This document shows positions 538-48,606 of a stretch of 64,000 bases of DNA, piece after piece. The stretch lies in contig CP146203.1 of NCBI GenBank assembly GCA_039995105.1, positions 2,046,001-2,110,000 on the forward strand, given 5' to 3'. A model generated the notes under the pieces. The model was not told the origin of the DNA. It did no database searches and worked only from the letters and a program-made list of their open reading frames with translations. A program made the position numbers and the translations under genes. This stretch comes from Jonesiaceae bacterium BS-20. GTDB taxonomy: Bacteria > Actinomycetota > Actinomycetes > Actinomycetales > Cellulomonadaceae. Numbering within the stretch: position 1 is the stretch's first letter; the number at the start of each line of letters is the position of its first letter.

Positions 538-594
538 GGGTTCTCCTTGGATACTCGGTATAGAAGATTTACGATGCCTGCCCCACTCACATCA

Positions 595-3500: not shown

Positions 3501-5415
3501 GGAGTTCAATCGCGTGTTGGTCGGGCTCAATCCTTGTGCCGAGTTCTTCCTGGCGTCGCTTCAGGTACTCGGCAGCAAGTTGGCGGGTTGCTTCGATGGC
3601 GAATGCACCCGAGCCAAGTGCCGGCTCACAAATGGTGAGGTTGAGGATCTCGGCAGCCGTTGTCTTTTCGCCATTTTGATCGAGGAGTTCCTCGAGTGCC
3701 TGCCCCACCGTGAATCTGGTGAGGACTTCCGGCGTGTAGTAGGAGGCCGATTGCTGCCGTTCTCGTCCCGCTAGGCGGAAGACAAATGAGCCACGCTCGT
3801 GGATGACCGGTGACTTCTCCCCCGATTCAGTATTTACCTCTTGGACAAAATCCTTTGCCGCGATTCCTACTGATCGCTCAACGGGAACCACCCAGGAGCC
3901 CTTGGATGAGTCACCGTCCTTAGCTACCTCATACAGGTCATCCTCGGCGAAGAAGCCCGTATAGCTCATGAGACCCTCATACACTGCACCAAGTTGGTTA
4001 ATACCTAGCTCAGCATAGGAAATATACCCGCGGTCCTTGCCCTTGGCCTTCTTGGACAGAAGGAGCTGCTCAAGGACCTTTTGCATTTGCAGATTCCCTA
4101 GGCCCACTTCATCAATCAGGGCCGTTGCGCTCGGTAGGAAGAGGTCTGCCCGCAGGTCATTGAAGACAAGTTCTTGTGCGTAGGATGATCCCTCATCATC
4201 CGTGAAAGAGAGACTGTCCTCTCCGTCACTCGTAGAATCCGGGGCGCTCACGTCTGCCCCACGCATTCCACCGACAAGTTCGAACAGAACGTTGAGCGAC
4301 TCGTAAAGGTGGGTTCCGTGCTGTGTTTTGGGGCTGTTCATGGGTGTAAAGCACATCTCGCGTAAACGGTCGAGCGAATACCCGGCCTCATACTCCGGGG
4401 TATTGATGGGGAGCACACCGAGTTCTGGCGAAGACTCCGCGTACAGCAGGAATAAGATCCGGTAGAGGTAACGCAACGCCTGCTTGGCAAGCTCCTGCGC
4501 TTGCTCTGGCGGCAACGGTGCAAGGACCTGCTCTCGCCTACGTGCCACCACCTCGTTGCCAATGATCTCGATTGAGGTGCGGACGCCATCGCGCAAGTCC
4601 TGGGAGACCCCAACCGTGTGCTTGATGGACGCGTCGAGAACTTCATCCCACCACACGGAGTTATCCACCTGTGGGGCAACCGATTGCGCGGTAATGCAGG
4701 TTAGCGCGCGGTCTAGTTCTTTACCCCGGCGGTCATCATTGCGTTCCAAGACCAGTTGGAGATCAATAGCCAGGTAGCGCCCCTCTGCCCAACGTTCCTT
4801 CTGGGCCAGCAAGACCCAACGCCCAGAGAAGACCAGTACGTAATTGGGACCATCCTCCGCAACGAACAGCTTGGAAAGCAGACCGCTGACCGAGGCTACC
4901 GGCTTGTCTTCTTCTGTAGGCGCATAGGGCTCAAATAGCGTCTGAGCCTCGGCGGATTCTCCGCCGGCAGTCTCGGTTGACTTGGTCAGCAACTCCTCGA
5001 GTGAGTCCGCAGGACGAGCCTTGAGGAGCTTGACGGGTGCGGCACCTGTTTGCCCTGCTTGTGAGAGTTCAATGAGCGGGCCGTTTTCTGAGACATCCAG
5101 GCCAGCGTTGGTATATCCAAGAACACCAATCAGATCTGCGTAGACCTGCTCGCTAGCCGCACGGACATCAACGTTACCTTCCTCCTCGGAAGGATAGAGC
5201 GCTGTGATTCGGCGTTCCAACTCGGCCCGTCGAGCGCTTAGCCGAGCAAGCGGCGTTGAAATGCCATTCTTACCGTCAGCGTCCCAGGCCTTGCGGCGCT
5301 CAAGCACAAAGGCATTGAACGTCTCCTTGGTGCCGTCTGAGGTAAAGAAGTGCTCCGAAATCCACTCGGAGCCAACAATAATTGCGTCAGAAACAACCTG
5401 TGCGTGCTGTGCCAT
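595..5415 (-). CDS. drmMI: Eco57I-like adenine-N6 DNA methyltransferase, DrmMI-like
   Basis: A 1606-aa protein predicted to methylate adenine so that host DNA is marked as self. The AdoMet-binding motif I (EPALGSGAFA, about residues 597-606) and the catalytic NPPW motif (about 975-978) of N6-adenine methylases are both present and widely spaced, as in Eco57I/type IIG-like enzymes. No separate nuclease motif is evident to me. Its ATG overlaps the stop of the upstream SNF2 helicase (TAATG at 5413-5417), so the two are translationally coupled. The helicase downstream starts 58 bp after its stop. Size, motif order and neighbours fit DrmMI of class 1 DISARM. The alternative is a methylase of a related but unnamed helicase-methylase system. 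Confidence 0.8.
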   Translation of the reverse strand: MAQHAQVVSDAIIVGSEWISEHFFTSDGTKETFNAFVLERRKAWDADGKNGISTPLARLSARRAELERRITALYPSEEEGNVDVRAASEQVYADLIGVLGYTNAGLDVSENGPLIELSQAGQTGAAPVKLLKARPADSLEELLTKSTETAGGESAEAQTLFEPYAPTEEDKPVASVSGLLSKLFVAEDGPNYVLVFSGRWVLLAQKERWAEGRYLAIDLQLVLERNDDRRGKELDRALTCITAQSVAPQVDNSVWWDEVLDASIKHTVGVSQDLRDGVRTSIEIIGNEVVARRREQVLAPLPPEQAQELAKQALRYLYRILFLLYAESSPELGVLPINTPEYEAGYSLDRLREMCFTPMNSPKTQHGTHLYESLNVLFELVGGMRGADVSAPDSTSDGEDSLSFTDDEGSSYAQELVFNDLRADLFLPSATALIDEVGLGNLQMQKVLEQLLLSKKAKGKDRGYISYAELGINQLGAVYEGLMSYTGFFAEDDLYEVAKDGDSSKGSWVVPVERSVGIAAKDFVQEVNTESGEKSPVIHERGSFVFRLAGRERQQSASYYTPEVLTRFTVGQALEELLDQNGEKTTAAEILNLTICEPALGSGAFAIEATRQLAAEYLKRRQEELGTRIEPDQHAIELQKVKAYIALHQVYGVDLNGTAVELAEISLWLDTMVSGLVAPWFGLHLRRGNSLIGARRAIFNQTQVDKKAHLKQTPTDIPMSVLAQEMNEGKVGSTTSGKIFHFLLPHEGWGAAADSKEAKSLAPDEAKDLRTWRNSIKNKLDKSLVKELISLSHRVESLWQLTLRRLQIAEQEIRRDVDVWGLDAPASGGAVERKQIEESLQNPHGAYQRLRRVMDAWNALWFWPLIGTGGVQPPTLEEWIDGLKGILGVHSEYKARGTRDTGVVESFARIGSWEELGEAEEWDLQFAGVQRISVLKEKYPWLAITEDIAKTQGFFHWELDFATVFANGGFDLQVGNPPWVRPYSDVEGLLAEGDPWFQLKNKATQAEVAQKREAVLEQVGLRELVVNGTADVGVTATFVGATSTYPELSGLAPDLYRAFMLQTWRNSSAGGIVSLLHPETHFTDEKAGPLRCATYPRLRRHWQFINELSLFEIHHLVSYGVHVYGVAQKVEFLNASNLYHPETVVRSFQHDGLGPEPGVKNDLGKWDQSSHAHRISKVTVDTLDVWNRVLGRTGESILSTPMVYSVNTSVEHALEVLSVNPRVSALKPEFSAGWNETIDRQKGYFDVAWGQPEAWKETILQGPNFHVGLPFFKQPNKGMKNNLDWSEVDLETLAPEASPYTSYKPVPSKQDYDSAYTHWGENGEIPARDHYRIAWRAMAANTGERTLISTIIPPGTAHIHGVASVGIPNQTAETLFCLAAFSQSLSLDFSVRAAPKSGIHASTFGRLPFVQDHPLSSELALRAARLNCLTDAYSDLWNDAFDPAWQAMTWAPHRDYNGKVSLGDIEPAWSAATPLRNATARRQALVEIDALVALMLGLSADELCTVYRTQFAVLYGYEKKNLYDANGRQVPNSIAGEYRKKGESLTSEERTFPKTELDCDAAEELTGHRPSRYTYEFPFETNDREADMRAAYAFFEDKLKTMETAR

Positions 5416-8400
5416 TACTCTGCCATTTCACTTTCTGTAACCGACTCAAGCTCAGTGACCGGCATGAGCCCAGCCGTAACGCAATCAAAATCTTTTGGAA
5501 CCGCAACAAAAAGGGGGCGCACGAGCATGCGGTCGGGAGCCATCTGATCTACGGCTTCTCGTTCCTGCTGCACAGTCATGCGGCGCTCTTTCACCTCACG
5601 GCGCTGGGTAAAGCCCTGTGCCGTTGAGTCCCAGTTGGTCAGGCGGTCACGCCACGTGTCAACTCGTTGCTCGGCGAGTGAACGAGAGGCTAGCTCAACG
5701 GCCTTGAATTGGCTCTCAGCCGCAGCCAGTGCCGGGGCGATGAGCGCGGTGAGGCGCTCAGCATGAGGCAACGCCCCAGGATTACTCAGTGTGTCCAACA
5801 GCGAGGTCTCTGCAAGCACCTCTGCCAAGCCGTTTGTAGGGACGGTAATGCAACGCAGGGTCTGCCCGGGCTCCGCCGTCAAACTCAAAAATTGGGCAAC
5901 CGTATACACCGAGGCAACGGACCTTCCGGCCTTGTTGGTCAAGTTTCCATGCACCGCAACCATGGGGAATGGGACATCGGTGCGCACCGCAAACACTGAG
6001 CTGCGGTCCAGTTTGGCCATGAGGTTGTCCGAGGCCCAATCCAATATCGGGTGCAGGGGCCCCAAGAAGTGAGCCTCCGGCCAGGTACTGTCGCTCTGCT
6101 TGGATAGGGCATGCGCCAAGGATTCTTGGCCCTGTTGCTTTGTGGTTGCCAGCGTGAACTGCGCCTTTACCCGTCGGTCCTTCAGGTAGGTCTGCGGTAG
6201 AACGTCGAGACGCGTAGCAAGGTCCTTGGGAGGGGTAAAAGAGGCGACGCCGTGGTTCTTTGCATGGCTCCAAGAAATTCCGCCTCCATCGGAGCGCGGT
6301 TCCTCTTCTGGGGCTGTATAGATTCGCTGGACGGCTTCCTCGAGGTATGCAACTTCAGTCCTGAACAGCCCGCTGGTGGCAATCGCAGGTGAAGATGTTC
6401 CCTCGTCTTCTACCGCTGGAGCGGGAGATGAGCTGGAACTAGGTGCGGCATCGAGAAGCTTTCCACCCAAGGCAAGCGCGGTTTCCCTATCTACCCCAAG
6501 TTGCGCAAGCAGCATAGTTACGGGATCGCTTTGGTCAAGCAGCGCCTGCTCGGGCGTACGCACAACCTGATCCAAGGTCTTAGTCCCCATCAAGACACTA
6601 CGAATGGCGTCCTCTTCACGGTTCTCTAGATACTCACCCATGAGGCTGGAAACATCGCCAAGGACCTTGTGGGCCTCGTGTTCCTTGTTGACCAGACTCT
6701 GTAGCACGCGAATATCACCGCTAAACCGGTCATCGCCCGTGTCAACCAGCAGTGTGGTGATGAGCGGAGACGTGCGCTGACCGTAGCGGTCAATACGACC
6801 GTTACGCTGCTCAATTCGAATCAGACTCCACGGAATGTCATAGTGAACCAAGTTGTGGCACTGGGCGTGCAGGTTCACGCCCTCAGAAGCGACGTCACCC
6901 GTAACGAGAATCCGGATTGGGGATGAGGCCTGTTTGAAACTCTCCACAATCTGCTGCTGGATCTCATCGCTCAGCCCACCGTGCAGGATTTGGACATTCT
7001 CATCTTTGAGTTTGAAAGCCTTAGTCAACTTCTCCTGGAGCCAGCGAAGGGTGGGAACGCGCTCTGCAAAGACAACAACTCGTTCTTGCGATTTCGCCCC
7101 AATCTTTACCTGATTCTTGAGGTACTCGACCAGTTTGTCGAACTTGGCAGAATCTTCGAAGGAATCCGCGTTGAGTGATTGGAGGGTTTCTAGTGCTTGG
7201 ATCTCTCGGTTCTGCTCAGACTCGGTGGCACGCGCTTGGATCTGCTGCATGCGGTTGCTGATGGATTCAGCGAGCGCCGCTGGGCTAGACAGGAATGCCT
7301 TAGCAAGAGTCCATGGGAAGAGCTGCGAGTTCTTGCCCGAGAGTGGGGCTTGGCCAGTGGGTGGGTGAAGCCACACGTTCGCAAGTTCTTGGGCGACGGC
7401 CCTTTCTGCGGGGCTTGCCGACACCAAGACGTTATTAGGTTCGAGACGCTCGGCCCACTGGGCCCCCACTTCGCGTGCAACCTCCGCCGAGTGACGGTGG
7501 CGGCGAATAATAAGGCGATCAGCCTCATCCACATTGATCTCGTTATCGAGGGAGACCGCTGTGGGGTCCAACAAGCGGATAAGTTCAGCAAACGACTCCT
7601 TACGCCCATTGTGCGGCGTAGCTGACGCCAGGATGAGCGCGTCCGTGTTTCTTGCCAGAATACGGGCCAGGCGGTTGTTCTGCGTTTGCGAGTTAGTGAG
7701 GTTGTGTGCCTCATCAATAACTACCGCGTCCCACTTCTGCTTGCGCAGACTTGCCAAGTAGAGGTCAGACTTAAGGGTGTCGATTGAAATAATTGCACGC
7801 TTGTAGAACGTGAATGGGTTACGCGTGGCCGGCAGTTGCTGGCGCACTCGCTGAATACCAACAGAGTCCAGCCGAACAAACGGCAGGCCAAAGCGCGTCC
7901 ACATCTCATGCTGCATCTGCTCAAGCACATGGCGTGGGGAAACGATGAGGATCCGGTCTCCCCTACCACGGCGCACCAGCTCAGACAGGATCATGCCGAT
8001 CTCGATGGTCTTACCCAGACCAACAGCGTCAGCCAGAAGAATCCTCGGCTTAAGGTTCTCTGGGTTCAGGGCTTTGCGTACTGCTGCTTCCTGGTACTTG
8101 AGCGTGTCCGCAAGCATGCTGGTACTGACCGTAAGGCTCAGCTCTGCGAGTGGAACCGCAGTCTTACGGAAGTTGGCCTCGAGCCACAACCGTGTATCCC
8201 GGTACTTAGAAGAGTCATCACCAATCACTCTGGTGTTATTGGGGTCCAGGACCTCAATACGGTCGAGCGTCTCATAAAACTGAGCAGTGGTGTCCTGCAC
8301 CAACTCCGAGAGCCCTTGGACATGCAGCAGCATTTTGCCAGCGTCAGTCACCTCGGTAGCCGTGACCAGCCACTCTTCATCCCGAACCACCACAACGGAG

Positions 8401-8441
8401 CCGGGCGCGACATTCAACGCGGCTAAAGGACTTACGGTCAT
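5415..8441 (-). CDS. drmD: SNF2-like helicase, DrmD-like
   Basis: A 1008-aa superfamily 2 Snf2-type ATPase. Walker A is GLGKTIEIG (about residue 140), the DEAH box is VVIDEAHN (about 239), motif III is SATPHN (about 270) and the C-terminal helicase lobe has the RNGRIDRYGQ arginine-finger motif (about 545-556). An unusual N-terminal region of about 130 residues precedes the ATPase. Class 1 DISARM loci begin with an SNF2-like helicase DrmD followed by the adenine methylase, exactly the order here. It is likely the first gene of the minus-strand operon, transcribed from the 250-bp gap shared with the divergent helicase locus. Function in phage restriction is inferred from family and context; the helicase fold is directly visible. 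Confidence 0.82.
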   Translation of the reverse strand: MTVSPLAALNVAPGSVVVVRDEEWLVTATEVTDAGKMLLHVQGLSELVQDTTAQFYETLDRIEVLDPNNTRVIGDDSSKYRDTRLWLEANFRKTAVPLAELSLTVSTSMLADTLKYQEAAVRKALNPENLKPRILLADAVGLGKTIEIGMILSELVRRGRGDRILIVSPRHVLEQMQHEMWTRFGLPFVRLDSVGIQRVRQQLPATRNPFTFYKRAIISIDTLKSDLYLASLRKQKWDAVVIDEAHNLTNSQTQNNRLARILARNTDALILASATPHNGRKESFAELIRLLDPTAVSLDNEINVDEADRLIIRRHRHSAEVAREVGAQWAERLEPNNVLVSASPAERAVAQELANVWLHPPTGQAPLSGKNSQLFPWTLAKAFLSSPAALAESISNRMQQIQARATESEQNREIQALETLQSLNADSFEDSAKFDKLVEYLKNQVKIGAKSQERVVVFAERVPTLRWLQEKLTKAFKLKDENVQILHGGLSDEIQQQIVESFKQASSPIRILVTGDVASEGVNLHAQCHNLVHYDIPWSLIRIEQRNGRIDRYGQRTSPLITTLLVDTGDDRFSGDIRVLQSLVNKEHEAHKVLGDVSSLMGEYLENREEDAIRSVLMGTKTLDQVVRTPEQALLDQSDPVTMLLAQLGVDRETALALGGKLLDAAPSSSSSPAPAVEDEGTSSPAIATSGLFRTEVAYLEEAVQRIYTAPEEEPRSDGGGISWSHAKNHGVASFTPPKDLATRLDVLPQTYLKDRRVKAQFTLATTKQQGQESLAHALSKQSDSTWPEAHFLGPLHPILDWASDNLMAKLDRSSVFAVRTDVPFPMVAVHGNLTNKAGRSVASVYTVAQFLSLTAEPGQTLRCITVPTNGLAEVLAETSLLDTLSNPGALPHAERLTALIAPALAAAESQFKAVELASRSLAEQRVDTWRDRLTNWDSTAQGFTQRREVKERRMTVQQEREAVDQMAPDRMLVRPLFVAVPKDFDCVTAGLMPVTELESVTESEMAE

Positions 8442-8690
8442 TACAGAGAAACCTCATTCGAGCAGCAGCGTAGTTAGGCCCCTGCGATGGGGACTAGTCT
8501 CCGCACGGTTGTGTCTGCTATGAGGGTATATTCTTCGCTGCTTTGAATGGGCGATCAACATGCAATCTGACTGCGCGCATAGTCGAGGTTCCGAAGTCTC
8601 GGCGGGCTTAAGGGGCAATGTCAGACATGGGCAGTACTATCCCTACCAATGGATCTTTGAAACATTCCACTAGTTGAAGGACTCTGAGCG
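8442..8690. promoter_or_regulatory. Divergent promoter region between two helicase loci
   Basis: These 249 bp separate the start codons of the DrmD-like gene (minus) and the 1060-aa unknown gene (plus), so promoters for both operons must lie here. I see no strong palindrome and no confident -35/-10 pair. The shared control region makes co-regulation of the two loci possible, but the sequence does not prove it. Confidence 0.55.
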
Positions 8691-11600
8691 ATGGCGCTTT
8701 TTGATAGAAACTGGGCTGACCAAATTGATGAAAAATGGCGCTTTGACCTCCGATCGGTATCACTTGTAACTGAAGTGAACTTCACCGATGAAGAACTCGA
8801 GCACGCAATCAGGTTCTTTGCCCAGCAGCTCGTAAAAAATGAGCCTGAGCAAATAGCTCACCACCATCCTGGAATATTTCTTGTCGCCATGACACAACTA
8901 GGCTCGCGAAGTTGGGAAGCACAAACTTTTTACCAAAAAGTCACCAATACCGTTGAAAATGTGGTTGGTCAGTTCATCGATTCAAGAAGAAAAATTGAAG
9001 ATGCCACAAGGTGCTTCAGCCTTCTCCTCAAGGAGTTTAATCTGGCAAGACTTGAGGGAAATTCAACAAGTCATCGATGGATCCGTCCAGTTCTACTCCA
9101 TGGCGCGGTGCCCCTCGATCACCTCGATGAATTACTAGACCTCATCAAGCGGCACATCCGCAAAGACCCCTCCATAACAGGTGAATCCCTAGTTGAGTTC
9201 CTCCGGTCCCACCCCTCTCATCTCGATAGAGAACCCATGGCACTTCGACTTTTTCTCTTACATGGAAAAGAGTTCACCGCCGACTATGTCTCGCAGGTGA
9301 TCGATTATGCCTCTGCTCTTCCAAGTAACCTCCCCACGCACATAACAGACCGACTTGACGAGTACATCGAGGAAGACCACGAGCGATCCTTAATCGAGTT
9401 TCCAAGGTCTGAACGTCCTGTTTTTGCACTTACCCCAGATGGATCGATCATCTTGCGGCTCCCCCCAGTCAAGCCTACTAATGGCAGCAGAGCGGTTGAC
9501 TGGCACATTCGATTTGGAAAGTACCATGAACATATTAGAACCGAAGTACCATACCTCGCAGGGGCTATCCACACCGAAGAAGCCAGTTACTACGTGCCCG
9601 CACCAGGCGTAGGAGCGTCGATCACCCGAGATGACTACCAGAGTGAGATTTCACTTATTGATCCAAAGGATCCACTGCTGATCTTTGATGGAATGGGCAC
9701 TCTCCTATCTCGAACTGAAGCAATCCCACCTGGAGACGTTACGTTATTCTGGCCGGCTACAAGTGGTACCTCACCCCTAATTGATGGCACTGAGGTAGAT
9801 GGTGTTTCTATTCTGCCTCCTTTCGGGTGGGGCAGTTGGCGTGCGCAACAACTGAGCGTTAGACAAGGAAGCAAGATCCAGTTTGGCGATGGCACGACCA
9901 GAAACATCCAAACACGAGACAGCAAGGCTCAACTAGTCTTTTCAAATGTCGTTACAGGAATTTATACTCTTGACGGCATGCCTGTATTTGCAACTCTCCC
10001 AAGCGTTACGCTCCCCAGAACACTTCCACTGAGCGAATGGACAGTTCTTGTCAGGGACTCAAAAGGAGTAGTTCTTACCAACTTTGTACCAGCTTCCTTC
10101 GACTTTGTTGTTCCAATTAGCAATGCTAATGTTCCAGACAAACTTGCTATTTCCATCAGAGGGCCACTAGGTAGAGGGATCACAAAAACGGTACCGATTG
10201 TTACAGACTTAGCTTCTACGTTCTATCCTGCGAATCGTACCCTCGAGCCAAATGGGGGTATAGAAAAGTGTACGGTGCGTATAACACGCAGTGACGAGCT
10301 CATCAAGGAAGTTCTGCTAAAGACCAACGAGTTCTCAACTTCGTTCTCCCTTGGCACGCTGAAACTGAAGGCCACGCCTGCTTGCGAAGCTTATCGACTT
10401 GTAGAAGACGATATGGATTTACCTTGGTCCAGCAGTCCTGAACACATCACAGTGAAACGTGCACGCTCAACGTATCTCCAGGTCCAAGGCTTAACAGGTC
10501 TTAGTTCAGTGACTCTTGCGTACACAGATAATGATGCTGAACCTAGTTCAATCACAAAACCTGTTCGTCGTGGAAACGTGGAGTTCAATCTTCGCGACTT
10601 CGCTGATGCGGCTAGCCTAACCAATCGAGGTACACTCACTCTCCTTTGCGGCGACCGCAAAACAGTCATCGGATTTGTAAGGCCCGAAAGGCTCGTGGAG
10701 TTTGGTGAACTTTATGGTCAGAATCTCTCATTCACAAGATACTCCGAGTCCCCACTCACGTTCACAGTTTTCCGAACTCTCCAACCCTGGATCCCAGGTG
10801 AAGTAATCCACATAGATATTGGGATTAACCATGTACAACTCCCTGAGGAACTCTTAGGAAACGGCCCCATTCGAGTCTTCGCTGAACTTGAAGATATCTG
10901 GGGCTCAGGTCCGAACACACAATATCGCAGGAACAGTAGCAATAGTAAGAACTACAACTCTTCTTGGAATATGACTCTAGTCTCTGAGCCTGATGTAGAG
11001 ATCTGCACACTTCTAATTGGCCAGGTTAAGACAATCACAGCGCCAACACGGCACACAATAAAACGAGCTATACAGTTAATTGGCCAGGCTGATGCTTTCA
11101 GAGAAATGACGAAGAGCGCACAAGACGACCTCCTACGACTCGTCACTGACCATTACTCAGTCTCTCTGGAAGAAATCGCAAGTCTAGACTGTACTGAAGC
11201 AGATAAATCCCGACTCTTGATTTTATCCGGTTTGCACATACTTAATCACCCAGTGATTCAAGACTCAAGCCTCGAAAAGATTGCGCGGCACTCTCCCACA
11301 GTTGCCTTCTTGGCAAGCCGTATTGATGAAGTTGATAAACTCCATGACCACCTCCTCTACTACTTTACGGATCAGTTTGGCCAGGAACTTGAAGACTACT
11401 GGGCTGGCTCGTCGAAGAATGCAGCTGAAGGATGCTGGGAGCCCTACATCAAGACGTTGTCGAGGGAACAGATCAAGATGCACCTCACCGTGCTAGGCGC
11501 AGTACCTGGGCTTCCTCTATCCGGGGATAACCGAATATTAGCTTCCAGTGGGCTCTTGATTTCCAAGCAAAGTCCGCACATCTATTCCAAGCGTTGGGTC

Positions 11601-11873
11601 CGCGTTGTCGCCAGAACCGCTCCAGTATTACAAGACTCACCACTATGGAACTTTGTCACACAACAAACCGGTGGCGAGGACCTCTGCCTCCCAGCAGCCT
11701 CAATCGCTCTCTCACTCGTAGCTCGGTTGGCAGCACGTGGAGACAAGAACGCAGCACAGGTTTACTCAGATATCAATGCTGAGCACGATCTACTATCCTC
11801 ACTAGCACCAGACCTAACCTACATTGACCTAATCCGCGCTGAAGCGGCAATAGCAGGAGCTCAAAGCAAATGA
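8691..11873 (+). CDS. Large protein of unknown family, partner of the DUF1998 helicase
   Basis: A 1060-aa protein that I do not recognise. No signal peptide, membrane segment, nuclease or ATPase motif is visible. Roughly residues 1-230 look helical and charged. Residues 250-740 are rich in alternating hydrophobic, Gly and Thr stretches that suggest several beta-sandwich modules, with a Trp/Gly-rich patch (PPFGWGSW, about 380). The last 300 residues look helical again. Its last codons overlap the helicase start (ATGA at 11870-11873), so the two are translationally coupled and probably work together. The DNA is visibly more AT-rich than the flanking Wadjet or methylase genes, which suggests acquisition. 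It may be a substrate-recognition or scaffold subunit of a helicase-based defence system; that is inference from coupling alone. Confidence 0.9.
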   Translation: MALFDRNWADQIDEKWRFDLRSVSLVTEVNFTDEELEHAIRFFAQQLVKNEPEQIAHHHPGIFLVAMTQLGSRSWEAQTFYQKVTNTVENVVGQFIDSRRKIEDATRCFSLLLKEFNLARLEGNSTSHRWIRPVLLHGAVPLDHLDELLDLIKRHIRKDPSITGESLVEFLRSHPSHLDREPMALRLFLLHGKEFTADYVSQVIDYASALPSNLPTHITDRLDEYIEEDHERSLIEFPRSERPVFALTPDGSIILRLPPVKPTNGSRAVDWHIRFGKYHEHIRTEVPYLAGAIHTEEASYYVPAPGVGASITRDDYQSEISLIDPKDPLLIFDGMGTLLSRTEAIPPGDVTLFWPATSGTSPLIDGTEVDGVSILPPFGWGSWRAQQLSVRQGSKIQFGDGTTRNIQTRDSKAQLVFSNVVTGIYTLDGMPVFATLPSVTLPRTLPLSEWTVLVRDSKGVVLTNFVPASFDFVVPISNANVPDKLAISIRGPLGRGITKTVPIVTDLASTFYPANRTLEPNGGIEKCTVRITRSDELIKEVLLKTNEFSTSFSLGTLKLKATPACEAYRLVEDDMDLPWSSSPEHITVKRARSTYLQVQGLTGLSSVTLAYTDNDAEPSSITKPVRRGNVEFNLRDFADAASLTNRGTLTLLCGDRKTVIGFVRPERLVEFGELYGQNLSFTRYSESPLTFTVFRTLQPWIPGEVIHIDIGINHVQLPEELLGNGPIRVFAELEDIWGSGPNTQYRRNSSNSKNYNSSWNMTLVSEPDVEICTLLIGQVKTITAPTRHTIKRAIQLIGQADAFREMTKSAQDDLLRLVTDHYSVSLEEIASLDCTEADKSRLLILSGLHILNHPVIQDSSLEKIARHSPTVAFLASRIDEVDKLHDHLLYYFTDQFGQELEDYWAGSSKNAAEGCWEPYIKTLSREQIKMHLTVLGAVPGLPLSGDNRILASSGLLISKQSPHIYSKRWVRVVARTAPVLQDSPLWNFVTQQTGGEDLCLPAASIALSLVARLAARGDKNAAQVYSDINAEHDLLSSLAPDLTYIDLIRAEAAIAGAQSK

Positions 11874-14800
11874 CCAGCATTGGCAACGTCGATCCAATTG
11901 CGGCTTCAGAGGGAATGAAAACTAGTTACACTCGTTATCTCTCCTCCCTGCTACCGCTTACAGATCAGAGACTTCGACACGCGTTAACATCAAAGCTCCA
12001 GGAAGAACAGGTACTCAGCAAAGGCCCATTCCTCGAATCCACACCGGCTTTCGAGTCCGGGGAGTCCATTTCCGACCTTGTGACTGAATGCGTCCTCCCG
12101 GACAAGTTTAGAGAGTTCAAGAGCAGAGCTCTACCTCTCAATCGTCCCCTCTACCGCCACCAAGTTGAGGCAATACGGAAAGCGCGCGCTGGCAGAAACT
12201 TGGTTGTGGCGACCGGAACCGGATCTGGAAAAACTGAATCATTCATTGTGCCGATTATTGCGTCCCTTTTCGACGAAATCGAGCGCAGCGCTCTTACTCC
12301 AGGAATTCGCGCGTTACTCCTCTACCCAATGAACGCACTTGCAAACGACCAGTTGAAGCGCCTGCGGGAACTTCTTGCAGAAATACCCGAAATCACCTTT
12401 GGTAGGTATACGGGAGAGACTCCGGAGAAAGCATCGGTTGCACGAGAGAAGTACCGGGCACTCAATGGTGAGCCGCCGCTTCCTAATGAAATCCTTTCTC
12501 GGGAGGAGATGCGAAAGAATCCACCACACATTTTGCTCACGAACTACGCCATGCTCGAATATCTTCTACTTCGTCCAGCAGACATGGACCTCTTTGAGGG
12601 ACCTTTTGGTGGTTCTTGGCAGTACCTCGTGGTTGATGAGGCCCACGTCTATGACGGGGTCAATGGCTCTGAGATTGCGCTGTTGATCCGTAGACTGAAG
12701 GAACGTGTAAAGGCTACAGATCTACAATGTCTAGCGTCATCCGCAACAGTTGGAAGTGACCAAATGGCTGTTGCAGAGTTTGCGGAGAGTCTATTTAGTG
12801 AAACTTTTGAGTGGGTAGACGAAGACAGGTCTAGGCAAGATGTCGTAACAGCTACCAGAGTACAACAAACCCGTTCAACAACTTGGAAAATCACTAAAGA
12901 TCAGATTGATAGTCTCTCAGGTCTCGAGGACCCTGACTCCGTCATTCGGAGTTGGGGCCACGCCACTTTGGAAGATGAACACCACATACAAAGCATTATT
13001 TTACATCTTTCATCAGGGCCCCAGACACTTGTTGAGCTTGCTCAAACTGTATTCCCAGAATTATCGACCAGTGATGCACAACGCAGATTGAGCAAACTTG
13101 TGGAGGTTGCACACCATGCGAAAGGGGCGCACGGGGCACCAATTCTCAACGCGAGGTACCACCAATTTGTTACAGCTGTCGATGGCGCATTCGCTTGTCT
13201 TGCAAATCCCAATAATCCGCACATTTCACTCTCCCGTCAGATGGAGTGTCCCGATTGTTCAAAACCAATGTTTGAGGTTGCTGCTTGCAAACAGTGTGGG
13301 AAGCTACATGTTCTTGGGAACGTTATTCAGTCTGGTGGAGTTCCAAAACTATTTTCCAAGTCTCGAGAGTCTGCAAGCCGCCTCTCTTGGGTCATGTTGG
13401 GATCCCATCAAGCTGAGGGAGACCCCGAGGACAATTTCTTAACTGAGGAGACCATACAAAAGGCAAACCCAGTAACCCTCTGCCTTGATTGTTCCTGTAT
13501 CACCCCTGGCCTTGATATCAGCTCCTGCAGTGCTTGCGGTTCAGGAAATATTCGAGCTGGGATTAGAACTGATGGCACATCGTTGCGTGAGTGTCACGCA
13601 TGCGGGGTGAAAGCAAACGAGCAGGTGCGACGCCTCAGCGCTGGATATGACGCCTCTATTTCTGTACTCATTTCAGATTTGTATGGAAATCTACCCGAAG
13701 ACTTGTCCATTGATGTACCAGGCAATGGACGGAAACTCCTGATGTTCGCTGACTCACGGCAACAGGCTGCCTACGCTGCACCAAACCTTGAGCAAAGTTA
13801 CGAGACGATGCTATATCGACGATTAATCGTAATGGGGTTGGAAGAGCGTCAAGGATTTGAACAAACTTCATCTGAGTTAGCCGAGGTCACGCTAAGAATT
13901 ACCCAAGAGAATAATGTTCTGGGCAGGCAAGATGGACAGTTTGAGCAATCTCGCCAAGTCCACGAGTGGATCCATAAAGAGAGCATTGAAGCCGCAGAAC
14001 GGAACTCTCTGGAAGGATGTGGCCTAGTGGCTGTACACCTTCGCCGTCCGGACATCCCCATGACACCAGGACTCATAAATTTAGGTCTGAACTCCGAGGA
14101 AGCGTGGGATCTCTTAGAAGAACTAGTAACTACAATGCGCCACTCAGGCGCCCTGTCCACTGATTACGCTAGAACACCCGTCAACATAAATGATGAGATT
14201 TTTGCCCCTCGCAATCGAGAGAAATCATATGTAGAATCCGGCTCAACTGCCATACGCGGTGTAGAGTCTTGGCTCCCCTCCGGAAAAGCACGTCGCAACA
14301 AGCGGGTTGGCTACTTAGAGAGCATTCTCAAGATACTTGACTCTACAGTTAACCCTGTTGAGATTCTCGAGGGAATTTGGAAGTTCATCACTAGACCGGA
14401 AGTTGACTGGCTTTCGAGTAAATCTACGACTCGTGGAGTCACATACCAAATCAACAATAGGGCTCTTCGATGGACACTAAGCGGCACCCAATCCAGATTA
14501 TTCCAATGCGGAACTTGCCAAAGATTTACTCCAAGATCAGTGAAGAATGTCTGCCCTGCTAACCAGTGCTCAGGGGTACTCAATGTCGTGGAACGAGAGA
14601 CTCAGCAGATCCGCTCAAACCAAAACCACTACGTCAACAGTTACCTAACTCTTGCTCCAGTCCCACTCAGTGCAAGTGAACACACTGCTCAGCTCAGCAA
14701 GGACTTTGCTGCTGCTACACAAAATAATTTCATCAATGGCCGAGTAAACGTTCTTTCTTGTTCGACTACTTTCGAAATGGGAGTCGACGTGGGAGAACTT

Positions 14801-16465
14801 CAAGCCGTATTTCTTCGAAATGTCCCACCCGCAACTGCCAATTATATCCAACGGGCCGGCCGTGCAGGTAGGCGAGCCTCCAGCGCTGCACTCGTGGTGA
14901 CCTTTGTGCAGATGAGAAGCCATGACCAGTATATGTACGCAGACCCTCACAGGATGATTTCCGGGATTGTACGTCCTCCACGGATTGATATTGTAAACGA
15001 AAGAGTCACACGCCGCCATGCTCACTCAATGGTGATATCTGCATTTTGGAGAGACGAGATGTCAAAAGGCATCGAGTATCGCTCCAATCAGTCCATGTTT
15101 TCCTCTGAGAATGGTCACGAACCTGGCGCAAACCGATTGAAGGATTACCTGGTCGACTTACCCAAACAATTACGGAACTCCATCAAGGAAGTTCTCCCCC
15201 AAACTATGTACCACAGCATTGACGTTGCCGGCTGTGAGTTCTCGGAAGAACTCATTAGATTGGTTCAAGAAAGTCAAGATCTCTATGACGAGGAAACTGG
15301 GTATCTCGAAGAGCAAATCATCCTGCTATCGAGCCAACGAAAATTCGGCCCCGCCAAAGGGATTACTGCCTCCAAGGCTGCCATAGAGGGACGTGGCACC
15401 ATCGGGGAACTCGCTAAGAGAAACATCCTGCCAAAATATGGCTTTCCAGTGGACACCGTTCCACTGACACCTCCAGGTAATGTTGCACTTCTAGACCTCG
15501 ACCTTTCTCGAGATCTCTCGATTGCAATCAACGAGTATGCCCCTGGAAATAAGATTGTGGCACAAGGGCAAGTGATTAGTTCAGTCGGTGTAGTCCGCCC
15601 TCCAGGAAAGGACTTCACTTTATACAACTATGCGATTTGCGGAACATGTAATCACTTCCAGAAATCAATCGATCAAATTTCAGAATCATGCTCATTGTGC
15701 GATGTACCTCGAGTGGGTACGGCACGCACATTGATTGTTCCAGAATGGGGATTTATCGCGAGTCCAGATGTAGGAAAGGTCGGGGGTGTCCGCCCAAGAT
15801 CCTCTTGGAACTCAAAACTCTTTATTGAGTCTTCAGGAGACGAAGTAGAGACCTTAACTGTAGAAACTTCAGCTGGGACCGTTGACTGGCGTGTAGGTGA
15901 ACGGGCAAGCCTCGCCCTCATAAACGAGGGTCCGCTAGACATGCATTACTACATTTGTGACTTCTGTGGATACTCACAACCTGGTATCCAACAGCTCACT
16001 AAGGCAACTAGAACTTCTCAGCAAAAATCTCACAAGCACACGAGAACTGGTGCTGATTGTAGGGGCCCACTACGCGGACGCGCACTCGCCCACTCATATG
16101 AAACCGATGTACTCAACATGTCGTTCCTCCAGACCACAACAACCGAGCAATCCCGCTCAATGCTCTACGCGATTCTCAACGCGGCGGCGGACGTACTCGA
16201 AATATCACGGGATGACATCGACGGAACAGTTGAGGTCTACAAGAAGAACAGGCTAGCTCTATTTGACGTCGTTCCTGCCGGAGCTGGATTAGTAAAGCGA
16301 ATTGCTCATGATCTCGAAGTAATCATTCAACGCGCACTTGATAGGACCGAGACTTGTGACTGTGGAATTGATACCAGTTGCTACCGGTGCTTGCGTGTTT
16401 ACAGGAACCAGTTTTACCACGAAGAACTCACCCGCAAGGCGGTGTTAGACATGAGAGTAACCTAG
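11870..16465 (+). CDS. DEAH-box helicase with zinc ribbons and DUF1998-like C-terminus
   Basis: A 1531-aa superfamily 2 helicase. Walker A TGTGSGKTESF lies near residue 114, motif Ia YPMNALANDQ near 152, the DEAH box VVDEAHVYDG near 254, SSATVG near 285, and motif VI QRAGRAGRR near 992-1000. Between the two helicase lobes are several Cys-pair zinc ribbons (CPDCSK, CKQCGK, CSACGS, CHACGV; about 460-585). The C-terminus carries the Cys cluster CDCGIDTSCYRCLR (about 1494-1507) followed by YRNQFYHE, the signature of DUF1998 proteins such as DrmB and MrfA-like helicases. It is coupled to the 1060-aa unknown gene by ATGA overlap. The family suggests ATP-driven translocation on DNA. Its partner composition does not match any system I can name. 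Confidence 0.88.
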   Translation: MTSIGNVDPIAASEGMKTSYTRYLSSLLPLTDQRLRHALTSKLQEEQVLSKGPFLESTPAFESGESISDLVTECVLPDKFREFKSRALPLNRPLYRHQVEAIRKARAGRNLVVATGTGSGKTESFIVPIIASLFDEIERSALTPGIRALLLYPMNALANDQLKRLRELLAEIPEITFGRYTGETPEKASVAREKYRALNGEPPLPNEILSREEMRKNPPHILLTNYAMLEYLLLRPADMDLFEGPFGGSWQYLVVDEAHVYDGVNGSEIALLIRRLKERVKATDLQCLASSATVGSDQMAVAEFAESLFSETFEWVDEDRSRQDVVTATRVQQTRSTTWKITKDQIDSLSGLEDPDSVIRSWGHATLEDEHHIQSIILHLSSGPQTLVELAQTVFPELSTSDAQRRLSKLVEVAHHAKGAHGAPILNARYHQFVTAVDGAFACLANPNNPHISLSRQMECPDCSKPMFEVAACKQCGKLHVLGNVIQSGGVPKLFSKSRESASRLSWVMLGSHQAEGDPEDNFLTEETIQKANPVTLCLDCSCITPGLDISSCSACGSGNIRAGIRTDGTSLRECHACGVKANEQVRRLSAGYDASISVLISDLYGNLPEDLSIDVPGNGRKLLMFADSRQQAAYAAPNLEQSYETMLYRRLIVMGLEERQGFEQTSSELAEVTLRITQENNVLGRQDGQFEQSRQVHEWIHKESIEAAERNSLEGCGLVAVHLRRPDIPMTPGLINLGLNSEEAWDLLEELVTTMRHSGALSTDYARTPVNINDEIFAPRNREKSYVESGSTAIRGVESWLPSGKARRNKRVGYLESILKILDSTVNPVEILEGIWKFITRPEVDWLSSKSTTRGVTYQINNRALRWTLSGTQSRLFQCGTCQRFTPRSVKNVCPANQCSGVLNVVERETQQIRSNQNHYVNSYLTLAPVPLSASEHTAQLSKDFAAATQNNFINGRVNVLSCSTTFEMGVDVGELQAVFLRNVPPATANYIQRAGRAGRRASSAALVVTFVQMRSHDQYMYADPHRMISGIVRPPRIDIVNERVTRRHAHSMVISAFWRDEMSKGIEYRSNQSMFSSENGHEPGANRLKDYLVDLPKQLRNSIKEVLPQTMYHSIDVAGCEFSEELIRLVQESQDLYDEETGYLEEQIILLSSQRKFGPAKGITASKAAIEGRGTIGELAKRNILPKYGFPVDTVPLTPPGNVALLDLDLSRDLSIAINEYAPGNKIVAQGQVISSVGVVRPPGKDFTLYNYAICGTCNHFQKSIDQISESCSLCDVPRVGTARTLIVPEWGFIASPDVGKVGGVRPRSSWNSKLFIESSGDEVETLTVETSAGTVDWRVGERASLALINEGPLDMHYYICDFCGYSQPGIQQLTKATRTSQQKSHKHTRTGADCRGPLRGRALAHSYETDVLNMSFLQTTTTEQSRSMLYAILNAAADVLEISRDDIDGTVEVYKKNRLALFDVVPAGAGLVKRIAHDLEVIIQRALDRTETCDCGIDTSCYRCLRVYRNQFYHEELTRKAVLDMRVT

Positions 16466-16692
16466 CCATGTTCAGCAGTTTCCTACCGCTTCAGATGATC
16501 CACGATTCAGTCTTGATTCTCTTGAGTTCTAGATAACCCCGTCAGAAGTACGAGCAAGAAAACGTACTGCACATCAGGCCCAACAGCACCTATTCAACAG
16601 CAACCTCACTTCCACATTCTTAAAGCGGCCACACATCACGAACTACTTTGAGATCTTCACGGCTTGTTTCCCTTCAATAAAAGGAGCTACCA

Positions 16693-17049
16693 ATGCATGA
16701 AGCGTGCACTGGCATTTTGGATTCAGCGAAAGGCCTTTATGTCTCGTTAACAGGGAAGACCATTATTAACGGTGAACACGTCCTAAGAATCACTTGCCAA
16801 GGTCATATTCGCGATTTCGGTGGAATTTTCAATCCACAATGGGCAACATTTGTGCGAGTCCTCGTACTGGGCCAGCAAGACGCGCGTACGCTTCATGACG
16901 ATGTACGGCGATACTCTCAGCAGATGTCTGGTGCAATCAAATTCATGCAGCGAGGAGGGAACCATATTCACTTGATTGACGGCGATGGTTTATGGAATCT
17001 CAGACAACACCGAGGCGCAAAGTGCCTAACTGCTCAGTTTCTATCCTGA
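16693..17049 (+). CDS. Small BRCT-domain-like protein
   Basis: A 118-aa protein with a good ribosome site (AAAAGGAG at 16679-16686) ahead of its ATG. The pattern fits a single BRCT fold: a first strand ending in LTGK (about residue 20), the Gly-Gly turn DFGGIF (about 43-48), the strand RVLVLGQ (about 56-62), a helix containing SGAIKFM (about 80-86), then HIHLIDGDGLWNL (about 92-104) resembling the IIxxxxFLxLL end of BRCT domains. BRCT domains bind phosphopeptides or DNA ends, for example in NAD-dependent ligase. It lies 228 bp after the DUF1998 helicase on the same strand and may belong to that locus. The BRCT call rests on pattern only. Confidence 0.6.
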   Translation: MHEACTGILDSAKGLYVSLTGKTIINGEHVLRITCQGHIRDFGGIFNPQWATFVRVLVLGQQDARTLHDDVRRYSQQMSGAIKFMQRGGNHIHLIDGDGLWNLRQHRGAKCLTAQFLS

Positions 17050-17362: not shown

Positions 17363-17740
17363 CTAGGACGGTTTCTTGGATGATTTTGTTTCTAGTATTG
17401 CGCGGTGTTCGCGGATTATCAGTCCGCCTAAGACTGTTTTGATTCGGGTGTTGTTATAGAAATCGAGGTAAGTCTCGATTGCAGATTCAATTTCATGGGC
17501 GTTTGCCCAATGGCGGTCGTAGAATATTTCTGTTTTCATTCGGCCAAAGAATCCTTCGCATGCTGCGTTGTCGCCTGACTTTCCCTTACGCCCCATGGAT
17601 CGTGTCAACTTGGCAGTCGTAACAGCTTCGATCCACTCCAGCCCTCGGTAGCGTCCACCGCGGTCTGTGTGAATGATAGGTCTTGGGGGTCTCAGTTCAA
17701 GACTTAGGTCTGCCGGGAGATGAGCAATGGCGTCCTCAAG
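17363..17740 (-). pseudogene. IS3-family transposase, C-terminal half (split by IS21)
   Basis: The minus-strand sequence encodes the C-terminal part of an IS3-family DDE transposase. The second catalytic Asp (IIHTDRGG) and the Glu (NAACEGFFGRMK) are present, followed by the usual YNNTRI motif. The gene is interrupted at 17740 by the IS21 element. Its missing N-terminal half continues in the same frame at 20372. Removing the IS21 and one copy of the CTCAAG duplication joins codons QGM-LEDA into one reading frame. With the element present it cannot make a functional transposase. Confidence 0.9.
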
Positions 17741-17935
17741 TGTCAGCGGACATGAAAAACTGCCCATAGATGGCCAGGAAAGTGCCCGCTGATGGCCAAG
17801 TAAATTGCCCATAGGTGGCCATGAGATCTGCCCATTTTTGTACTGACACCTGTTGCGGTTAAGCGGCGGGAGCCTCTTCCTGGGGTTTGATGTTGATGTC
17901 TAGTCACATCAGTTCCACTCAGGAAGAGGCCTTGT

Positions 17936-19459
17936 ATGAAGTCTGACGGAGAAATCATGGAAATTCTAGAAGCGTACGATCTGACACAGTCGTTTCGGAG
18001 TGCGGCCGTACTGGCGGGGTGTTCCCATCACACGGTTGCTAAGCATGTTGAGGCTCGGGCTGCCGGTCGGCCTATTGCCCAGCTGGCGGTTCGGGAAAAG
18101 ATCACGGATGATTTTTTGCCTCATATCGAGGGGTGGATTGATAGTAGCAGCGGGACGATCCGCAGCGATGTTGTGCATGGCAAACTGATTGGGTTAGGGT
18201 ACACGGGGTCTGAGCGCACGACTCGGCGTGTGGTGAAGCAGGTGCGTTTGGCTTGGCAGTTTGGACACACGCGGGTACACCGTCCGTGGATCACGGAGCC
18301 CGGGCTTTGGCTGCAGTACGACTTTGGTGATGGCCCTGTCATTGATGGCGTTAAAACGGTCTTGTTCGTGGCTTGGTTGGCATGGTCACGGTTCCGGATC
18401 GTGATCGCGCTGCGGGACAAAACAGCGCCTTCGGTGTTTGGGGCGCTGGACCGTTCCTTTCGTATTCTAGGTGGAGCCCCTACTTATGTATTGACAGATA
18501 ATGAGAAAACGGTGACGGTCTCTCATATTGCAGGAGTTCCGGTCCGTAACTTGCAGACCGTTGATTTTGCGCGATATTACGGGGTCACCGTGTTGACGTG
18601 TGCGCCGGCAGATCCTGCAACCAAGGGTGGGGTGGAAGCTTCCGTCAAGCTGGCTAAGGCCGATCTCGTACCAAAATCAACGAACTTACGTGAAGAGTAT
18701 GACTCCTTTGAAGAGCTCGAAGCTGCATGTGCGTCGTTCATGGATCGTGTTAATACCCGTGAGCACCGGGGGACCAAACGTCTGCCAGCGTCGATGTTGA
18801 ACGAGGAAGTGTTACGCCTACACCGGGTCCCTGACGACCCGCACTTGGTGTCGTTTGGGGTTCCCCGGGCCGTGCCAGCTAATACGCCTATGGTCACGTT
18901 TAACCATGGCCAATATTCAGTGCCATCGTACTTGCTTGGGCAAAAGGTATTGGTCCGTCAGCACGGCACTGGCCCTAGTGAACAGGTCATCATCATGCAT
19001 CTGGGCCCCGACGGGGTCAGGGAAGTGGCCCGCCACCACAGTACTTCACCAGGTAGTCCAGCGATCAATAATGATCATTTTCCTGAACATGTCGACAAAA
19101 TTCCCGGGCACTACACGCTACGACCAAGCAGCGCGTCTGAGCTTGAGTTCTTGGCCATAGGTGTAGGGGCGGGCACGTGGTTGCGTGAAGCATGTGCGGT
19201 AGGTACCAAACGCATTACCCAGAAAATGGCAGAAGCTGTTGCACTATCAAAGATCGCGGGTGTCGATGCGGTCGATCACGCGTTGGGCACTGCAGCAGTT
19301 CATGGGCGTTTTGCGCATGATGATCTGGCCTCTATCTTGTATTCCACCAGACCCAATCCGATTACCCACAGTGCCAATGAGGACGTGTCCTTAACTCAAG
19401 GGACCAGCAGCTGGGCTGCTATCACCAGCACATACCCCGTTGGAAAGGAGAAACAATGA
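17936..19459 (+). CDS. istA: IS21 transposase IstA
   Basis: A 507-aa DDE transposase that cuts and joins the IS21 ends. An N-terminal helix-turn-helix (residues about 10-40, AAVLAGCSHHTVAKHV) precedes the integrase-like core. Core Asp residues are visible in LQYDFGDGPV (about 123-132) and VLTDNEKT (about 183-190), with ATKGGVEASV (about 228-237) near the Glu position. The length is normal for the family and there is no internal stop. The stop overlaps the istB start (ATGA at 19456-19459). It needs IstB for target choice. Confidence 0.93.
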   Translation: MKSDGEIMEILEAYDLTQSFRSAAVLAGCSHHTVAKHVEARAAGRPIAQLAVREKITDDFLPHIEGWIDSSSGTIRSDVVHGKLIGLGYTGSERTTRRVVKQVRLAWQFGHTRVHRPWITEPGLWLQYDFGDGPVIDGVKTVLFVAWLAWSRFRIVIALRDKTAPSVFGALDRSFRILGGAPTYVLTDNEKTVTVSHIAGVPVRNLQTVDFARYYGVTVLTCAPADPATKGGVEASVKLAKADLVPKSTNLREEYDSFEELEAACASFMDRVNTREHRGTKRLPASMLNEEVLRLHRVPDDPHLVSFGVPRAVPANTPMVTFNHGQYSVPSYLLGQKVLVRQHGTGPSEQVIIMHLGPDGVREVARHHSTSPGSPAINNDHFPEHVDKIPGHYTLRPSSASELEFLAIGVGAGTWLREACAVGTKRITQKMAEAVALSKIAGVDAVDHALGTAAVHGRFAHDDLASILYSTRPNPITHSANEDVSLTQGTSSWAAITSTYPVGKEKQ

Positions 19460-20235
19460 ATCCACTCAATACCCCAGCTGCTGGACTTCCCAGTGATCTA
19501 GAAGCAATGATGCGATCGCTGAAGATGCCCCATGCCCGCCAGTTAGCCCCTGACCTGATCGCTACCGCCAAAGCACAACGCTGGGAACCCGTCGAGGTCA
19601 TCAAAGCCTTGTTCGCAGAAGAAATCAAAGGTCGAGCAGCCTCCATGCTTGCCATCCGCCGCAAAGCAGCGAAGTTTCCTAGCGGTAAAACCTTCGAGGC
19701 CTGGGATCCGGCACTGTCTTCAATCCCGCTACCTACCCAAAATGGGCTGCGCACCTTGGAATGGATCCACCGCCACGAAAATCTCGTGGTCTGCGGACCA
19801 TCTGGGACAGGTAAGAGCTTCTTCCTCGAAGCCCTTGGACAGCAAGCTGTTGAAGAAGGTCTAAAAGTCGCCTGGTTCCGGCTCGAAGACCTAGGCCAAC
19901 TCATCCGAGCCCACCGCACCGATGACAGCGTCACCAAAGCCATCGAACGCCTCCTACGAGCAGACCTCATCATCCTCGATGACATCGGACTATTACCCGT
20001 CGCACAAGACACAGCCGAAGGCCTCTACCGGGTCGTAGATGCAGCATACGAGAAGCGCTCAATCGCAATATCCTCCAACCTACACCCAGCCGGATTCGAC
20101 GAACTCATGCCCAAAACCCTAGCCACCGCGACCGTGGACCGACTCCTACACCACGCCCACGTATGCCAAACCAGCGGTGACTCAGTACGATTCACCCAAG
20201 CCCTGGAAGGAAAAGGAATAGCCCAACTCAAGTAA
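19456..20235 (+). CDS. istB: IS21 helper ATPase IstB
   Basis: A 259-aa AAA+ ATPase of the IstB/DnaC type that assembles on target DNA and directs IstA. Walker A is GPSGTGKSF (about residues 115-123) and Walker B is LIILDDIGL (about 172-180). It is full length and translationally coupled to istA. A good ribosome site (AAAGGAG at 19444-19450) also precedes the ATG. Confidence 0.93.
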   Translation: MNPLNTPAAGLPSDLEAMMRSLKMPHARQLAPDLIATAKAQRWEPVEVIKALFAEEIKGRAASMLAIRRKAAKFPSGKTFEAWDPALSSIPLPTQNGLRTLEWIHRHENLVVCGPSGTGKSFFLEALGQQAVEEGLKVAWFRLEDLGQLIRAHRTDDSVTKAIERLLRADLIILDDIGLLPVAQDTAEGLYRVVDAAYEKRSIAISSNLHPAGFDELMPKTLATATVDRLLHHAHVCQTSGDSVRFTQALEGKGIAQLK

Positions 20236-20366
20236 ACGCCCAACCCCACGGCCATCAACCAAAACCCATCCCGGGCAGATCTCATGGCCGTACCCGGGCA
20301 CTTTACTTGGCCACCAGCGGGCAGAACTCTTGTCCGCTGGTGGGCAGTTCTCCATGGCCCTTGACA

Positions 20367-48590: not shown

Positions 48591-48606
48591 ACGGACACAA
48601 ACACTC

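Follow-up and report, generated by a model that had tools for sequence, protein, structure and literature searches.

The window analysed here, a stretch of 64,000 nucleotides of Jonesiaceae bacterium BS-20 (contig CP146203.1, positions 2,046,001 to 2,110,000), carries on its plus strand two long genes in direct succession: an open reading frame (ORF) for a protein of 1060 amino acids (aa; 8691–11873) and one for a YprA-family SF2 helicase of 1531 aa (11870–16465). The stop of the first and the start of the second share the letters ATGA (11870–11873), as a first-pass annotation made from the letters had noted, and the pair is, as it had also said, richer in AT than its neighbours, its two genes having a GC content of 0.486 and 0.493, where the adjoining operon's genes in the window have 0.568 and 0.542 and the window as a whole has 0.534. 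That annotation had proposed an undescribed defence module of two or three genes, a proposal that was to fall if both genes matched a described system. The outline of two genes, one for a DUF1998 helicase and one for a possible sensor, survives; the third gene does not, nor does the novelty, and we reject a new, unnamed system, as both genes fit Druantia type III, which has been named and tested, and the fit comes close to the match that was to decide the matter. We are confident that the pair is Druantia type III of the III-B kind, that is, a divergent DruH with a nuclease-less DruE helicase, and refer to the genes as druH-B and druE-B. The mechanism is less sure than this identification, since it would have to be carried over from relatives.

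The helicase DruE-B

The 1531-aa protein, placed by PADLOC, Pfam, a tree and the length of its tail, has three domains above the Pfam cut-off and no others: a DEAD/DEAH domain (PF00270, residues 96–297; 12155–12760), a Helicase_C domain (PF00271, residues 930–1002; 14657–14875) and a zinc-binding MZB (DUF1998) domain (PF09369, residues 1433–1508; 16166–16393), all on the plus strand. This is the domain set of the DruE-family YprA helicase of Druantia type III. In the family alignment the Walker A (GTGSGKTE, with lysine K121), DEAH, SAT and QRAGRAGRR motifs and the cysteine clusters are intact, in agreement with the DUF1998-like cysteine cluster seen at first pass. DruE models head its PADLOC matches (DruE1 with 617 bits, DruE3 with 576), with DpdJ and DrmA far below. 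As PADLOC 2.0.0 (2023) predates the ARMADA paper (2025), these matches alone are unable to exclude ARMADA. In a tree that FastTree built from 49 proteins of the YprA family, where group labels come from gene order and the PADLOC matches of this analysis rather than from the published tree (four rows carry no label), the window helicase lies among 30 rows beyond a branch with SH-like (Shimodaira–Hasegawa-like) support of 100, and canonical Druantia III/III-A (three rows), Druantia I (two), ARMADA I (six) and ARMADA II (four) all fall outside. Rows for III-B entered this tree because they resembled the window helicase or the alignment of its family; only the last 1700 residues of long open frames were used, and FastTree gave warnings about long branches and about an uneven residue composition.

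The subtype follows from what is missing at the C-terminus. The helicase ends only 23 aa past its last cysteine cluster, and no nuclease domain was detected in it with Pfam, with neither a PLD nor a Vsr domain found. Since DruE of the III-A kind carries C-terminal PLD nuclease domains, the window's protein is III-B if anything, and not III-A. Short tails are general among 80 named loci, which are the best 80 of 563 confirmed helicase-based loci, neither complete nor random: in the 67 where the tail after the last cysteine cluster is measurable its median is 30 aa, with eight tails above 100 aa and none above 200. In the published YprA tree a Druantia III-like branch, whose helicases are described as most frequently lacking a nuclease, has GIH50614.1 as its III-B representative (PMC12458937, Bell et al.). 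The window shares with that branch, as reported there, a DruE-like and mostly nuclease-less helicase, and our assignment rests on this description, not on the sequence of GIH50614.1. A literature search for the phrase “Druantia III-B” returned no paper. Among 396 genomes of the order, a helicase search that scored just two candidates per genome gave matches at E <= 1e-40 in seven, and the window's own alone was taken as III-B by gene order and score. Next to the III-B rows, as the tree is drawn, stand YprA helicases of about 2080–2125 aa from cyanobacterial plasmids (L017, L019 and L018 in our numbering of loci); at L017 and L019 they are preceded by “chromosome segregation ATPase-like” and hypothetical genes, and a two-row profile of the window's upstream protein has no match there.

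The upstream protein as a remote DruH

The 1060-aa protein has no match at E <= 1 in PADLOC, NCBIfam or PHROG and a single sub-threshold match in Pfam, so that the profile search proposed at first pass yielded no PADLOC or Pfam match above threshold; what it did yield, once profiles were compared with profiles, is a link to DruH. With hhalign, an alignment of 12 rows of the DruH-B family against eight canonical DruH sequences, all from plasmids, scores 82% over 487 collinear columns, and larger alignments score 94.4% over 185 columns and 92.7% over 151. The controls for the last of these stay far lower, at 0.1% for the reversed profile, at most 1.6% for 10 block-shuffled and at most 0.1% for 10 column-shuffled ones, and unrelated pairings with DruE-B give 0.2 and 0.1%. 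Together with the conserved position directly before druE, this comparison places the protein, by its sequence, as a putative DruH, remotely related to the canonical form and linked to it mainly through the beta core.

Predicted structure agrees in outline. The AlphaFold2 model (predicted local distance difference test, pLDDT, 78.6; predicted template modelling score, pTM, 0.42) suggests a helical N-terminal part (residues 1–230), a beta-rich middle resembling immunoglobulin (Ig) and FN3 domains (about 240–760) and a helical C-terminal part (766–1060), and the weak fold matches of the middle are to FN3, Ig and complement/alpha-2-macroglobulin-like chains. Two acidic residues of the C-terminal part, D1046 and E1051, are conserved in the family. 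The published cryo-electron microscopy account of E. coli DruH (PMC13192584) describes three Ig-like domains together with helical ends, a layout that the predicted helix–beta–helix order would match.

Several observations weigh against this identification and temper it. The best-scoring hhalign matches are confined to 151–185 columns of the beta-rich core. The PADLOC DruH models match neither the window protein nor the relative in genome G033 nor nine other relatives at E <= 1, and the same models match E. coli DruH 11 times. Among the 3780 ORFs in the 80 named loci the canonical DruH profile finds no match at E <= 10, and the DruH-B profile gives marginal scores on the eight canonical proteins, the best 6.2 bits, so to speak at the edge of detection, where the similarity between the E. 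coli protein and that of the window also lies. The pTM of the model is just 0.42, and the best VIA Z among its fold matches, 7.9, is at a level that the tool rates as common. The E. coli DruH structure 9tud, present in the PDB sequence copy, is absent from the fold matches listed, an absence that is uninformative since the fold library ends on 2026-04-08.

Three features would suit a different reading, in which a DruE-like helicase works with an unrelated Ig-domain sensor that has replaced DruH, so that the pair would be a distinct two-gene system and, instead of belonging to type III, would form a new type of Druantia: the silence of every PADLOC DruH model, a helicase clade that is nuclease-less and stands apart from canonical III-A, and a larger-alignment match limited to beta-core columns. 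We think this improbable, since the hhalign match far exceeds all 21 reversed and shuffled controls and is collinear over the longer span in the smaller alignment, since the protein has the length class and the position of DruH and, as predicted, its helix–beta–helix outline, and since the published DruH of Mycolicibacterium smegmatis probably belongs to this branch.

Recurrence of the gene pair

The pairing is not a chance feature of one genome, because it recurs in others. Searched as a single sequence, the 1060-aa protein finds one relative among 98 other genomes (G033, 31% identity), and searches with it in genome contigs and plasmids were unproductive. A two-row DruH-B profile is more sensitive, detecting the family in 18 further genomes of a class sample of 394, and gave nothing useful against viral contigs. 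DruE-B lies downstream of DruH-B on the same strand in all 18 and directly adjacent in 17, the exception being G451 (L049), where two genes intervene; two of the helicase matches (L060, L063) are fragments, the partner at L058 has about 720 aa, and the partners at L061–L066 are short. The conserved pairing that the first-pass annotation had asked of gene neighbourhoods is thus present, here and in 70 of the 80 best named loci, three of which (L091, L110, L140) repeat class-sample loci.

In 76 of those 80 the helicase is preceded on its own strand by an ORF of more than 300 aa whose end lies close to the helicase start. The starting 12-row DruH-B profile matches this ORF in 59 of the 76, and after two rounds, with the later profiles built from such upstream matches, in 70. 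Some DruH-B match is present in 75 of the 80 loci, none being found at L117, L133, L141, L145 and L149 (L117 and L145 also have no near-upstream ORF). Across the 3780 ORFs the profile matches 79, namely the 70 partners and nine others, mostly pieces of a partner gene or displaced copies (L091, L147); one of the nine, at L105, is encoded on the opposite strand where the contig ends. By the same profile, partners occur in Actinomycetota, Chloroflexota, Bacillota, Planctomycetota and archaea.

Some loci depart from the common form. The short DruH-B forms of L061–L066, 568–663 aa from stop to stop and upstream of DruE-B, match only profile columns of about 54–198 and 388–757 of 1185, and thus lack the C-terminal helical part. 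The two genes that separate the pair at L049 (3066–7605) encode a 556-aa protein and an Hsp70-like one that carries a Zc3h12a-like NYN RNase domain. At L091 (Microbispora amethystogenes) and L147 DruH-B is likewise displaced upstream, and an ORF of 685–687 aa stands directly before DruE-B.

This distribution bears on whether the genes might be a housekeeping pair, with the helicase a repair enzyme of the MrfA/YprA type. The helicase does share its MZB domain with MrfA, and SftH, a repair-type homologue, is reported to be able to substitute for DruE in M. smegmatis (PMC13316683). We nonetheless consider a repair role very unlikely: DruE models are its best PADLOC matches by a wide margin, the distribution of DruH-B is patchy (the single sequence picks it up in 2 of 99 relatives and the profile in 19 of 394 genomes of the class, counting the window's own genome each time), and its neighbours are ARMADA, Dsr1-like and Wadjet genes.

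Characterized relatives and mode of action

Two experimental accounts of Druantia III give the pair its nearest functional context. In M. smegmatis, MSMEG_1253 (DruH, 1132 aa) and MSMEG_1254 (DruE, 1667 aa; DEAD, Helicase_C, DUF1998) are reported to protect against phage, with both genes required (PMC13316683, Li and He). As described there, this is likewise an overlapping pair, a DruH of about 1100 residues followed by a DruE without a canonical nuclease domain, and it differs from the window in the length of DruE (1667 against 1531 aa) and in the overlap (17 bp against 4). A search of the genus Mycobacterium (248 genomes) gave 16 matches. The one mycobacterial member aligned, L051 (G693; 1106 and 1668 aa), whose place apparently recurs as G915, has a DruH 21% identical to that of the window, a comparison made with L051 and not with MSMEG_1253–1254 themselves. 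Four of the six residues mutated in the published M. smegmatis DruE are found at the same numbers in L051 (K119, A292, A1016, C1516), where they sit in the Walker A, SAT, QRAGRAGRR and cysteine-cluster motifs. It is therefore through L051 that MSMEG_1253–1254 probably belongs to the same branch as the window pair. Against this step stand the published residues D225 and P800 of DruE, which do not fit L051, and the published DruH sites, of which at most five of 11 fit, a result without significance once all the sequences and offsets tried are taken into account.

The E. coli system (L021; DruH of 1119 aa, DruE of 2104 aa; PDB 9tud and 9tu7; PMC13192584) has, as published, the same order, druH then druE, the same helicase core and a DruH with helical ends and an Ig-like core, which the predicted layout of the window's protein resembles in outline, whereas two C-terminal PLD domains are described in its DruE and none is found in DruE-B. 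In the same account E. coli DruH is reported to nick DNA, with greater activity in its dimeric form, and probably senses a phage baseplate protein, and DruE is reported to load on 3′ single-stranded DNA. The M. smegmatis pair is said to stop phage DNA circularisation and replication and to be activated by a minor tail protein (PMC13316683).

By analogy with these relatives, the following course of events may be proposed. With its Ig-like domains DruH-B would sense a structural protein of the phage, belonging to the tail or the baseplate; it would then shift its assembly state and act on DNA; DruE-B, as a helicase that may load on 3′ single-stranded DNA, would be engaged; and the circularisation or replication of phage DNA would be blocked. 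The part of DruE-B is probably to unwind or occupy DNA, and since it has no detectable PLD or Vsr domain, any cleavage of DNA ought to be the work of DruH or of some other enzyme. The two accounts are at odds over a stable DruH–DruE complex (PMC13192584, PMC13316683), a point that counts against this reading.

The divergent ARMADA type II operon

Back to back with the pair lies a helicase–methylase operon on the minus strand, which the first-pass annotation had called DISARM-like; the divergent operon is there, and its type is ARMADA type II. Nearest to druH-B is a BrxHII/RapA-like helicase (5415–8441), identified by gene order and by DrmD as its best match in PADLOC and NCBIfam (in NCBIfam 349.7 bits, below the cut-off of 610). 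It is followed by a type IIG/PglX-like methyltransferase of 1606 aa (595–5415; PADLOC REase_MTase_IIG 1430.6 bits, DrmMI 176 bits) and by the start of a YprA helicase (1–537), placed by gene order and tree, which runs off the window and reaches 2225 aa in the longer locus (L155, 1361–8038); beyond it is a gene for a 736-aa UvrD/GajB-like helicase (L024). A BrxHII-like helicase, a PglX-like methylase, YprA and a GajB-like helicase are the published order of ARMADA type II (PMC12458937), and the minus-strand operon shows it. DISARM is rejected, as there is no separate DrmA and DrmB beside the methylase: one fused 2225-aa YprA with an MZB domain of its own comes first, then the UvrD/GajB-like gene, and the YprA clusters in the FastTree tree with three other ARMADA II rows. 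The RelE-like domain reported at the N-terminus of the GajB-like protein as a type II trait (PMC12458937) has no counterpart in Pfam or NCBIfam matches, where the helicase part alone was matched.

Between the divergent operons lie 249 bp (8442–8690, defined by the ORF coordinates), a candidate shared control region, in and around which (8300–8800) no sigma-70-like site was found. Synergy against some phages is reported for E. coli Druantia III and ARMADA II (PMC12458937), which are described as co-directional there and are divergent in the window. In a minority of loci Druantia III-B is again found next to ARMADA II, at times in head-to-head orientation. An ARMADA-like helicase is present in four of the 80 named DruE-B loci (L081, L085, L086, L103), an ARMADA-type YprA in two further ones (L089, L118) and a GajB-like gene alone in three more (L076, L080, L136); of these, L081 (Skermania) and L103 (Rhodococcoides) repeat the head-to-head layout, as does L086 (Prescottella) across a wider gap. 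In the class sample, an ARMADA-like helicase occurs in 10 of 19 DruH-B genomes against 33 of 375 without DruH-B (Fisher p 3.8e-6; leaving out the genome of the window, 9 of 18 and p 1.9e-5), with the helicase counted at E <= 1e-60, a cut-off that may admit DISARM or ARMADA I, with the same 394 genomes assumed for both searches, and with kinship ignored by the test (five of the 10 co-occurring genomes carry related short DruH forms). The ARMADA genes are seen adjacent in four of the 19 (G000, G469, G693, G730).

Joint action of Druantia III-B and the adjacent ARMADA II is possible, and a composite of the two, which would be compatible with the Druantia III-B identification, can be sketched: an Actinomycetota arrangement of two YprA-helicase systems, perhaps jointly controlled from the short intergenic region, in which the nuclease-less DruE-B would open DNA and DruH-B or ARMADA would cut it, ARMADA perhaps supplying the nuclease that DruE-B lacks. 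The recurring head-to-head layouts, the co-occurrence across genomes and the E. coli synergy all speak for such a composite. We nevertheless give the composite, and the division of labour within it, only a modest chance, one we would call doubtful in both cases: in the sequence covered, ARMADA genes are missing from most of the 80 named loci, adjacency is seen in four of the 19 genomes, the Fisher test has the weaknesses just given, the two operons differ in GC content, and the intergenic region offers no promoter-like site.

Flanking genes and the wider island

Downstream of druE-B on the same strand, the 118-aa ORF at 16693–17049 had been taken at first pass for a BRCT-like component, a view for which the family searches and the comparison of loci give no support. 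Searches of Pfam, NCBIfam and PADLOC gave nothing for it at E <= 1, and the PDB gave no match either; there are only a weak PHROG match (E 0.027) and two marginal ones (E 6e-3), on Rhodococcus plasmids, to a protein that itself has no Pfam match. With no supported family, and no match at the other loci compared (the window's own is the only one), it is rejected as a third component.

The annotation had also described the block as bordered by insertion sequence (IS) elements. They are found on one side only (17363–20693), and on the other lies the divergent operon. On the IS side an IS3 transposase gene on the minus strand is in two pieces (20025–20693 and 17363–17812), split by an IS21 istA/istB pair at 17936–20235. 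Farther along the plus strand of the window are a Fic/DOC family protein with a Fic_N domain (29912–31135) and a Wadjet type I system with JetA, JetB, JetC and JetD in order (43022–49764; best PADLOC scores 585, 234, 1206 and 379 bits). In the 20 kb before the window (L024) are a Dsr1-like SIR2 protein (7469–11047, minus strand), a helicase with an MTES_1575 nuclease domain (3–4145, plus strand, cut) and a protein that matches PDC-S39 at 44 bits.

Implications

Two points are new: a divergent DruH branch that PADLOC 2.0.0 misses, and the repeated proximity of Druantia III-B and ARMADA II at a minority of loci. A candidate system comes off the list of unknowns, having looked unknown since DruH-B falls below every threshold in the present searches of PADLOC 2.0.0, Pfam, NCBIfam and PHROGs; and as the branch lies below such thresholds, Druantia III may be undercounted by models of this kind. 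The ARMADA II neighbourhood carries the published E. coli pairing over to Actinomycetota, and a DruE-B without a nuclease makes it a testable question which protein cuts the DNA.

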